A stretch of 11,715 nucleotides of DNA from positions 1 through 11,715 of the forward strand of contig JAKDLE010000034.1 in assembly GCA_030453005.1 (NCBI GenBank), written 5' to 3'. The translations under genes and the position numbers were made by a program. This DNA is from Pseudonocardia sp. GTDB lineage: Bacteria > Actinomycetota > Actinomycetes > Mycobacteriales > Pseudonocardiaceae. Below the pieces are notes generated by a model, which made no database searches, was not told where the DNA came from, and saw nothing but the letters and a program-made list of their open reading frames with translations. Of the stretch, positions 7,821-10,251 are shown one piece after another; the first letter of the stretch is position 1; every line of letters starts with the position of its first letter.

Positions 7821-8468
7821 TCATGGCCCGACGAGCCCGTTGCGCCGCCGGGCGATCCGATCATCATCGGCACGCACGAATCCGGGGCGGACGACCTTGC
7901 ACACCGCGCCGTCGTCCCGGCGCAGCACGATTCCCTCCATCAGCGTCGCGCCGACCGTCGACGGGCCGAGAAGACCGGCTACGGCGTCCTCGGTACGAAG
8001 GACACCCGAGAACAGCCGCGGGGGGACGACCAGGCCGGCGAGCCGGCACAGCTCGTCACGCTCGTGCACCGGAGCGAACCCGGCACCGGTAAGCAGGATG
8101 TCCAGCACGACCAGGTGATCCGGGAGCCGTTCGTACTCCACCGTGTGGGTCAGCCAGAGCCACTCGGCGTACACCACGAGACCTTTCTCCAGCATCGGCC
8201 GGAGAACCTCGTACTCCTCGGCGACCCGGGCTCGGAGCGGCCCGAGCTGACCACCTCGATCCATCGCGCCGGGCCCGCCGCGGCCGGCGACCTGCAGTCC
8301 GTTCCCCTCCCACCAGATGCAGACGTTGGCCCCGTCGAGCTTCTCCTCGACGACCACCGGACGTCGCAGCCATGCGGCGCGGTCGGCGAAAGGCACCACC
8401 CGATCCCCGGATGTGGCCGAATCGGTCGGCCAGAGGTACGGAATGCGGGGGTACGCAGGCGGCGCCAT
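7821..8468 (-). CDS. Minimal ATP-dependent RNA ligase (Rnl2-like nucleotidyltransferase domain)
   Basis: Protein of 215 residues made of essentially one nucleotidyltransferase domain. Motif I is EKLDGAN, with the AMP-accepting lysine K43. Motif Ia is likely AGRGG (R63), motif III VVYAEW (E102), motif IIIa HLVVLDI (D123), motif IV LMEGIVLRR (E178), and motif V CKVVRPGF (K191). Their order and spacing match the RNA ligase family of T4 Rnl2 and related enzymes, which seal 3'-OH/5'-phosphate RNA ends through enzyme-AMP and RNA-AMP steps. It lacks the separate C-terminal domain of Rnl2 and the OB domain of DNA ligases, so end specificity may come from a partner. The ATG at 8468 overlaps the PIN gene stop (TGATG); no ribosome site precedes it, indicating translational coupling. 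A capping-like or other nucleotidyltransferase role is the alternative. Confidence 0.85.
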   Translation of the reverse strand: MAPPAYPRIPYLWPTDSATSGDRVVPFADRAAWLRRPVVVEEKLDGANVCIWWEGNGLQVAGRGGPGAMDRGGQLGPLRARVAEEYEVLRPMLEKGLVVYAEWLWLTHTVEYERLPDHLVVLDILLTGAGFAPVHERDELCRLAGLVVPPRLFSGVLRTEDAVAGLLGPSTVGATLMEGIVLRRDDGAVCKVVRPGFVRADDDRIARRRNGLVGP

Positions 8469-8938
8469 CAACCGTAGGACGCCAGGAGAGCGTCCAGGGT
8501 CCAGAGCTTGATCGGCGTGGCACTCGGCACCTTGGCCCGATACCGATCCATCTCCATCAGCAAGCTGGCGTCACCGCTGCCGATCCCCGTCATCGCGAAG
8601 TCGACGAGCGGCAGACGCGTGCCGCTGCCCTCGAGCAACGACTCCAGGAACTCGACGTCCCACGGCACCCCCGACACGGCCATCGGCACCGTCGCCGTCA
8701 ACGCCCGCCGCAACCACTCGACGAACCGCTCCATGCACGTCCGACGGGAATGGCCATCGGCGAGCTGTGCGATCGCGTTGCCCGTCTCGATCACTGCGGT
8801 CACCGGGAAGACGAACGTGGCCTCGATGTCCTTCAGCCGCTTGAACTCGGCGACCACCGCCGTGCGCTCGCCGTTCCTGCCCGGCACATCGAGCAGGTTG
8901 AAGAGCACGGAGCTGTCCAGGAACACCACATCACCCAT
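8468..8938 (-). CDS. PIN-domain ribonuclease (VapC-like fold)
   Basis: Protein of 156 residues with the four conserved acidic residues of PIN nucleases in order: D8 in VVFLDSSVLFN, E51 in AVIETGNAI, D123 in GSGDASLLME, and D149 in KLWTLDALL. These hold the metal ions that cut single-stranded RNA in this superfamily. Length is somewhat above typical VapC toxins (about 130-140), with an extra loop around residues 60-110 (FVEWLRRALTATVPMAVSGV). There is no small VapB-like antitoxin gene beside it; its neighbours are instead an ATPase and an RNA ligase. Both ends overlap adjoining genes by one base (TGATG), and no ribosome site is visible before its ATG, so its synthesis should depend on translation of the ATPase. 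The substrate is unknown; tRNA or mRNA is likely by family. Confidence 0.87.
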   Translation of the reverse strand: MGDVVFLDSSVLFNLLDVPGRNGERTAVVAEFKRLKDIEATFVFPVTAVIETGNAIAQLADGHSRRTCMERFVEWLRRALTATVPMAVSGVPWDVEFLESLLEGSGTRLPLVDFAMTGIGSGDASLLMEMDRYRAKVPSATPIKLWTLDALLASYG

Positions 8939-10251
8939 CAGGAGATGCCCAGGAGCCGGTCGAGCTCGGTGCTGTCGACGACGGCATCCGACCGGCCCGC
9001 GAGGCGGCCGGCGCTGATCAGATCTCCCAGTCGGCCCGACGCCATCATCGCCAGATAGCCCGGCAGGTCGACCAGCCGTGTCACCCTGCTCCGACCGGTG
9101 GACCGTTCCCGGTCCACCACCAGTACCCCGAGGTGGTCGTCGCCGCTCAATGCATTGAGCAGGGCAGGGCTGTGGGTGGTGAGAACGACCTGGAAACCCT
9201 GCTCGGCACGAGCCGACTTCACGAGCGTCAGCACATTCGCGGCCTGGGTCGGGTGCAGGCCGTTCTCGAGTTCCTCCAACACGAGTGTCAGCGTCGGAGA
9301 GACGGTCATCGGCCCCTCGATCGCGACGCCACTCCCCCCGGCGAGCAATGCGGTGATGATGGCCATCATCCGCAACATGCCATCGCTCATCTGCCGAGCG
9401 GGGACGGTGACGGTGCGACCGCTGTCCACTTCATCGATCGCGAGCATCACCTCCCCGAACTCACCCCGGCCGATGCCCAAGGAGCGGAGTTCGTATTCGG
9501 GAAGTTCCTTGATCGCAGCAACCAGTTCAGAAAAGCGCGTACCACCGTCGCGATGCAATCGAGCAACCGTAGCCGAAAGATTCTCCCCGTTGCGCCGCAA
9601 CACCACGTCCTGTTCGGGCACGTACTGGCGCATCAATTGGGGTACCGGGTCCAGGTGGAAGACGCCACCCAGCACCCCGAGGATGGCATCTGTCGCTTCC
9701 AGCACGTGACGCTCGGCCGCACCTTTCCCGGCCAGCCGCAGTGGTAGCTGTGCAGTCAACAGATGCGTGGCCCGGAACATCACGTGTGGATTGCGACCGC
9801 GCTTGTTGTTCCAGATCCTCGCCTCGATATCCGCCCGTTGCGGATCGGGGTCGGTGGTTTCGAGCAACGTCCGGCGACGACCATCGATGACGGCGGTGAG
9901 CCGCTCGTAGGTGATCTGCACCTGCGGGCGAACCTGGACCCGGACATCCAATCGCACATCAGCATCGTCCCGCCGAATCGTCACTCCGAGTTCGAAGGAG
10001 TCCGACCCGAACGGCGCGCAACCCTCGATTCCGCCGCGAACGGGTCCGGCGTCCCGCCTCGCCCCATCGAGTGCATCGCGGATCTCGCCGCCCTTGGCCA
10101 GCCGGGACAATACTTGCAGGGCGTCCAGAGCGTTGGACTTCCCGCCGCCGTTACGACCGATCAGAATCGTCAATGGCGAGATCGGCAGCACCACTTCTCG
10201 GTACGACTTGAACGCGATGAGGCGAAGCTCGGTGATCCGGTCAGCGACCAT
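8938..10251 (-). CDS. ABC-type AAA family ATPase (AAA_21/AAA_15-like, SMC/RecF-type)
   Basis: Protein of 437 residues with a split ABC ATPase head. It opens with ITELRLIAFKSYREVVLPI and Walker A GRNGGGKSN at 32-40 (K38). A divergent insertion of about 240 residues takes the place of a coiled coil. The signature helix follows as QMSDGMLRMMA (287-297), then Walker B TLVLEELENGLHP (322-334, Glu in the usual Asp position as in many AAA_21 proteins) and the H-loop TTHSPALL (H360). There is no TOPRIM domain, which separates it from OLD nucleases; the nuclease is supplied by the next gene. Such ATPases act as sensors or regulators of toxic effectors in systems such as PARIS, Septu and the PrrC/RloC group. 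The ATG at 10251 has no ribosome site but lies 6 bases from a -10-like box. Codons include more A/T than in flanking genes, for example around 9480-9600. Confidence 0.88.
   Translation of the reverse strand: MVADRITELRLIAFKSYREVVLPISPLTILIGRNGGGKSNALDALQVLSRLAKGGEIRDALDGARRDAGPVRGGIEGCAPFGSDSFELGVTIRRDDADVRLDVRVQVRPQVQITYERLTAVIDGRRRTLLETTDPDPQRADIEARIWNNKRGRNPHVMFRATHLLTAQLPLRLAGKGAAERHVLEATDAILGVLGGVFHLDPVPQLMRQYVPEQDVVLRRNGENLSATVARLHRDGGTRFSELVAAIKELPEYELRSLGIGRGEFGEVMLAIDEVDSGRTVTVPARQMSDGMLRMMAIITALLAGGSGVAIEGPMTVSPTLTLVLEELENGLHPTQAANVLTLVKSARAEQGFQVVLTTHSPALLNALSGDDHLGVLVVDRERSTGRSRVTRLVDLPGYLAMMASGRLGDLISAGRLAGRSDAVVDSTELDRLLGIS

Follow-up and report, generated by a model that had tools for sequence, protein, structure and literature searches.

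A three-gene operon from Pseudonocardia sp., in which the gene of an ABC-type ATPase is followed by those of a PIN-fold protein and an RNA ligase, is a recurring and conserved module and not a chance adjacency. It lies in the window, i.e., the whole 11,715-nucleotide stretch of DNA that was analysed (contig JAKDLE010000034.1). The ATPase and the PIN protein constitute a candidate defence pair already catalogued in PADLOC as PDC-M07, which makes the ligase the extra gene. As the best explanation, to which we give roughly an even chance, the trio would be a phage-triggered RNA-cutting alarm with a built-in ligase as off switch, and thus a form of reversible immunity.

The three genes are intact and follow one another on the minus strand in the order ATPase, PIN protein, and RNA ligase, each overlapping the next by TGATG (Table 1). 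This arrangement, which the first-pass annotation had read from the open reading frames, was confirmed.

Table 1. Coordinates of the trio and of an adjacent gene remnant in the window
Feature	Positions	Strand	Description
ATPase gene, 437 aa	10251-8938	minus	PADLOC PDC-M07A, AAA_21/ABC-type; all named motifs intact, Walker A included
PIN-fold protein gene, 156 aa	8938-8468	minus	PADLOC PDC-M07B; D8/E51/D123/D149 intact; start ATG overlapping with the stop codon of the ATPase gene
RNA ligase gene, 215 aa	8468-7821	minus	Nucleotidyltransferase domain only; KLDGAN intact; ATG overlaps the PIN stop
ECF-type sigma-factor gene remnant	10290-10961	minus	Start corresponds to sigma region 2 (weak Pfam match); continuation in another frame (by eye)

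The trio is flanked by an acyl-CoA dehydrogenase gene on one side and by the frame-broken sigma-factor remnant and a YCII gene on the other. The profile scan of the window neighbours identified these three together with YflT and solute-binding proteins, and no defence gene adjoining the trio was found among the scanned neighbours. A stretch of about 60 bases matching window positions 10312-10373 is present in 12 of 15 other loci of the same genus, where it lies 0.26-1.16 kb from the start of the acyl-CoA dehydrogenase gene as opposed to 2.6 kb in the window (distances computed from the listed match positions). The shorter distance in the same-genus loci fits the trio having been either gained or lost here.

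The window ATPase matches PDC-M07A with 563 bits over residues 1-436 of 437 and Pfam AAA_21 with 110 bits. The PIN protein matches PDC-M07B over residues 1-155 of 156 (141 bits), while none of the Pfam families matched it. Typical motifs of the nucleotidyltransferase domain of ATP-dependent RNA ligases (KxDG and the motif IV/V residues) are found in the window ligase, which matches Pfam RNA_ligase (PF09414) with 66 bits at a cut-off of 27 and none of the PADLOC models. NCBIfam and PHROGs delivered further ATPase and RNA-ligase matches that are weak or generic.

Homologues of all three proteins were found in the protein database (388 for the ligase, 64 for the PIN protein, and 532 for the ATPase). 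Among the matches listed, with at most 120 rows compared per family, 20 of the 64 PIN rows sit on a contig of exactly the same size as that of a ligase row, whereas 2000 jittered controls averaged 1.1 and never exceeded 6. Furthermore, at least 481 ligase loci were confirmed in a contig scan with the ligase alignment, and the best 80 of these, in a ranking that favours M07-like ligases, were inspected using longest-ORF gene calls. Nine of these best 80 carry an M07-type trio, and 45 show the same order with the ATPase and PIN families of HEC-03, another candidate pair catalogued in PADLOC. A further 13 combine an HEC-03-type PIN gene with the ligase, no ATPase being found (three of them have less than 2.2 kb of upstream sequence), 12 are without either partner (one with zero upstream sequence), and one (L081) holds another gene pair. 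The order ATPase-PIN-ligase was verified in 54 of 54 trios, with a median gap of 36 and a maximum of 114 bases between the PIN and ligase HMM hits. Neighbourhood above chance, which the first-pass annotation had named as the check to be made, is therefore borne out both by the trio order in 54 of the best 80 of at least 481 loci and by the size matches. The nine M07 trio loci are all from MAGs, eight belonging to Actinomycetota and one named Deltaproteobacteria; one of them (L015) is frame-shifted.

The module is not uniform. The sole partnerless ligase among the ten best loci is that of L020 (Planctomycetota), and six actinobacterial ligases stand alone within the best 80 of at least 481 loci. 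At two loci (L025 and L057, around positions 5300-5950), a ligase without PIN gene is divergent from a gene for a macro-domain (ADP-ribose)-like protein, as judged by eye. In the window's family, the PIN gene was detected in 1 of 249 genomes and in 0 of the 15 other genomes of the window's genus in that sample. A sample of 394 genomes of the class contains the M07B PIN in six, each time beside an M07A match and with the ligase in the window genome only; the notion that M07 is always a trio was rejected, since five of these six M07B genomes are without ligase. Four of the five ligase-less M07 loci of the class scan are broken in the ATPase or the PIN gene (L127-L130). In a sample of 147 genomes from the class to which G640 belongs, three carry the HEC-03A PIN and two of these an adjoining ligase, one of the two being the centre genome that was picked for having the trio. 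As many M07 pairs come without it, the ligase is an accessory and not an obligatory part of M07.

The motifs which the first-pass annotation had named in the PIN protein, the ATPase, and the ligase are intact in the window, and the catalytic residues of the PIN protein and the ligase are also kept in the relatives. In the alignment, the acids corresponding to D8, E51, D123, and D149 are present in 53 of 53 PIN rows of at least 140 aa, the window included. For the M07 PIN proteins of the trio loci, D8 is found in nine of nine and E51 and D123 in eight of nine, the exception being the frame-shifted L015, while the last acid is D in four and E in four. The HEC-03 PIN proteins have D6 in 55, E52 in 56, and D112 in 57 of 58 rows, every exception being a partial row, and the fourth acid position is D in 52 and E in 6 of the 58. 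Although the M07 and HEC-03 PIN families could not be related by profile comparison, and the window PIN protein matched M07B models only and not HEC-03A at E values up to 1, AlphaFold models of both families align to VapC-type structures. The window protein is predicted to adopt a VapC-type PIN fold with an acidic quartet and to act as an RNase. In the ligase, E41, K43, D45, G46, R63, E102, and D123 are identical in all 80 of the best 80 of at least 481 loci and N48 in 79, and E178, G179, and K191 are present in all 73 rows extending that far. The nearest solved sequence is the ATP-dependent RNA ligase 5d1o for the HEC-03-type ligases (E 5.8e-5) and 3qwu, named a DNA ligase, for the M07-type ligases (E 3.9e-4). 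Because the ligase consists of the nucleotidyltransferase domain alone, it may need a partner to hold the RNA. One metagenomic protein (P0010) reads like the first PIN residues fused to the ligase, as an internal deletion would produce.

Some relatives are embedded in defence operons. In L042, L049, and L070 the trio is embedded in a type I restriction-modification (R-M) operon, with hsdS on one side and hsdR on the other. This context rests on Pfam for L049 and, for L042 and L070, on gene clusters and on a neighbour scan that showed specificity and restriction subunits three times each. In L017 and L018 an M07 trio lies between HmaB and HmaC. The neighbour scans used for these operons covered 74 out of 139 and 29 out of 29 selected genes, respectively, and list the commonest families only. 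Methylase, HNH, or hsd neighbours, named after cluster representatives, were observed for 12 of the 45 HEC-03 trios and are lacking by gene-cluster count in the other 33. Placement in a defence island, as suggested for examination by the earlier annotation, thus applies to some relatives (R-M and Hma operons) but not to the window copy with its neighbours outside defence. Moreover, the same ligase family follows PD-T4-4_A (674 bits) and PD-T4-4_B (310 bits) in L081, and in L090 (positions 3759-6129) it stands in a row behind the genes of a protein resembling RmrA (178 bits) and of a PIN-like protein, the latter assigned by eye and with no PADLOC match. Compared with the L049 ligase, that of L081 shows 69% and that of L090 67% identity. 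A second, C-terminal ligase remnant is present downstream of the full ligase in the L081 genome (L191, positions 2287-2412), as if modules had been exchanged.

The trio is also found on plasmids. Of 30 plasmid records matched by the L049 ligase, nine reach at least 46% identity with a query coverage of 67% or higher, and the HEC-03A PIN gene adjoins the ligase in nine of nine. Six Aeromonas plasmids are closely related to one another, and three of the trio plasmids inspected are conjugative. Two Acidithiobacillus records contain a C-terminal ligase remnant only (59% identity over 24%) without PIN gene, and the other 19 records are more distant ligases, with no PIN annotated in the four regions inspected. 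Conversely, the HEC-03A PIN is encoded in 12 plasmid records, of which three Acinetobacter soli plasmids are without ligase. In an Aeromonas caviae plasmid (L135, positions 6547-8603), an IS256-type element interrupts the ligase while ATPase and PIN genes are intact. Ligase-less M07 pairs exist on plasmids as well, including one in Vibrio campbellii that is flanked by hsdS and hsdR, and since all four PIN acids are kept in the four that were aligned, the ligase is dispensable. On an Acidithiobacillus caldus plasmid, a C-terminal ligase remnant precedes an HNH gene (L185, positions 6055-6174), again as if modules had been exchanged. A more distant plasmid RNA ligase family (L181, L183, and L184) has an AAA ATPase gene directly downstream.

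By analogy with other nucleases gated by an ATPase, the PIN nuclease would be restrained by its ATPase until a trigger is sensed. The freed PIN protein may then cut RNA needed for translation, possibly tRNA or rRNA as VapC toxins do, after which the ligase would reseal the cut RNA and the cell recover. The benefit might consist in recovery after a false or resolved alarm or in containing leaky cutting. Such cutting and resealing is supported by the PDC-M07 matches of the window ATPase and PIN protein, by the recurring trio order and the nine plasmid records with adjoining PIN and ligase genes, by the fact that two VapC-like PIN families, unrelated by profile, both precede the same ligase family, by the trios inside R-M and Hma operons and the occurrence of the ligase family behind PD-T4-4, and by the invariant ligase residues and patchy occurrence in the window's family. 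It is weakened by the ligase-less M07 pairs, the PIN-ligase loci without ATPase, the lone ligases, the restriction of the ligase to its nucleotidyltransferase domain, and the lack of defence neighbours in the window. The earlier proposal of a cutter combined with a ligase has stood as regards the conserved module, the kept active sites, and the defence operons of some relatives. It is modified in that the first two genes are already catalogued, the ligase can be absent, and the window copy lies outside a defence island. PIN enzymes generally leave 5'-phosphate and 3'-OH ends, which are joined by ligases of the class of the window ligase. For VapC cuts, on the other hand, 5'-OH ends are given in an excerpt of PMC6459853, and these could not be joined by this ligase class without a kinase, a gene that the Pfam scan of the window did not find next to the trio.

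The ligase has evolved differently relative to its partners in the two types. Within the 45 HEC-03 trios, the distances of ATPase and PIN protein are closely correlated (Mantel r 0.86, a value reached in 0 of 5000 permutations), whereas the ligase gives r 0.25 with the PIN protein (5 of 5000 as high) and 0.28 with the ATPase (0 of 5000). Compared with L049, 18 HEC-03 trios share 23-28% identity in the PIN protein, 31-42% in the ATPase, and 57-74% in the ligase. On the ligase tree, which comprises 81 rows, was built with a quick method and has long branches, at least 12 switches between the two HEC-03 subtypes are needed; the starred branches force three to four of them. The M07 ligases and that of L020 form a single group (99%) on this tree, and in eight M07 trios the ligase follows the PIN protein and the ATPase (r 0.66 and 0.75), with r 0.85 between the latter two. 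In HEC-03 a conserved ligase thus stays under exchangeable ATPase-PIN pairs, while in M07 all three co-vary.

The weak tracking in HEC-03 and the repeated subtype switches would also be expected if the ATPase-PIN pair alone served defence and the ligase were a general RNA repair enzyme or a conserved recombination flank that does not act on PIN cuts. The existence of ligase-less pairs and the C-terminal ligase remnants at L185 and L191 point in the same direction. We nevertheless consider this rather unlikely, as the ligase keeps its catalytic residues in every one of the best 80 of at least 481 loci, the genes are tightly packed in the trios, the M07 ligase co-varies with its partners, and nuclease partners recur next to the ligase even though its other neighbours vary.

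Another idea is that the PIN protein and the ligase form a regulated cut-and-splice or RNA-maturation unit, comparable to Ire1-type splicing, which serves a stress response instead of phage immunity and uses the ATPase as switch. PIN and ligase genes without ATPase were indeed observed in ten loci with enough upstream sequence. Four of these ten (L062, L086, L087, and L089) adjoin a helicase gene at what resembles one constant position in the chromosome, and this argues for a role outside defence at those loci. That other trios occur on conjugative plasmids or within R-M and Hma operons, and that presence in the window's genus is patchy, makes such a role improbable for the trio. It is more improbable still that the ligase is an offensive part acting on the ends of foreign RNA (or DNA) by joining or adenylating them, for instance so as to disrupt the phage's repair of cut tRNA. 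The nucleotidyltransferase domain being present alone and the PD-T4-4 and R-M contexts would suit this role, but there is no pointer to a foreign substrate and ligases of similar sequence exist alone. Chance neighbours in a single genome, for which only the window genome combining PIN and ligase in the 394-genome class sample could be cited, are hardly credible and were rejected given the nine MAGs (Actinomycetota and Deltaproteobacteria), the 45 HEC-03 loci, the plasmids, and contig-size matches far above the jittered control.

Returning to the alarm with a ligase as off switch, a broader version, which is conceivable though we would rather doubt it, holds that one ligase family is the common repair arm of several unrelated nuclease immune modules (M07, two HEC-03 subtypes, PD-T4-4, and RmrA-PIN). 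If so, different alarm-and-cutter pairs would be plugged in before a constant ligase, and a cell whose translation has been stopped would wait and mend instead of dying. Immunity by RNA cutting is commonly interpreted as leading to suicide or dormancy, and repair is attributed to the phage. A host operon holding both cutter and ligase would make the outcome reversible by the cell itself. PDC-M07 and HEC-03, which are catalogued but unexplained, would gain a mechanism open to testing, along with a third gene that had been overlooked. Swapping of nuclease pairs before a conserved ligase would also be a pattern of defence-module evolution of which no description was found in the open-licence literature.

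No description of the trio, no occurrence of the name PDC-M07, and no experiment on any trio member, including a phage test of PDC-M07, was found in the open-licence literature, a body of text that largely excludes subscription papers and preprints. Most candidate systems of this kind await experiments, as stated in part of PMC12988326. The first-pass annotation had not recognized the trio as a named system, which is true of the ligase, for which there is no PADLOC model, but not of the ATPase and the PIN protein: both are adjacent and match the PDC-M07 models along their length, and the PADLOC candidate is modelled without a ligase. HEC-03 shares the gene order and the ligase family in 45 of the best 80 of at least 481 loci but differs in its ATPase and PIN families; it is named as a detected subtype, without RNA ligase, in the accessible part of PMC13356809. 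The L081 ligase follows the A and B genes of PD-T4-4, in place of which the window carries M07 genes. PD-T4-4 was named in a report of anti-phage systems from functional selection (PMC9519451), and a term search of the available text of that report found no mention of an RNA ligase.

Other systems resemble the trio in single components. The NsnB model of Menshen matches the window ATPase (63 bits), but the Menshen partners are DUF262 and OLD-nuclease proteins (PMC10952713, in part) and those in the window are a PIN protein and a ligase. The AriA model of PARIS likewise matches the ATPase (111 bits), while its partner matches M07B and no AriB model, and the PtuA model of Septu matches weakly (45 bits), with no PtuB match in the partner genes. 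VapBC shares the VapC-like PIN fold, but the trio has an ATPase in the antitoxin's place and a ligase afterwards; the window PIN gene overlaps the ATPase gene upstream and the ligase gene downstream, leaving no small antitoxin gene. The anticodon nuclease PrrC unites ATPase and nuclease within one protein, as does RloC, whereas the window encodes them separately. In EcoprrI, prrC is positioned between hsdS and hsdR, and the likeness lies in the ATPase-nuclease embedded in the hsd operon of some trio relatives. According to the accessible text of PMC3874165, the EcoprrI R-M operon has prrC embedded in it, and repair by phage T4 relies on a kinase and an RNA ligase; in the window-type trio, by contrast, the ligase is on the host's side. 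Pnkp-Rnl-Hen1 shares the idea of a host RNA ligase aimed at ribotoxin damage (PMC4411300, in part), but the window trio is without a kinase/phosphatase or methylase neighbour and has the nuclease in its own operon. What appears new, as far as the open-licence literature shows, is an unrecognised and probably functional third gene, the ligase, behind catalogued ATPase-nuclease pairs.
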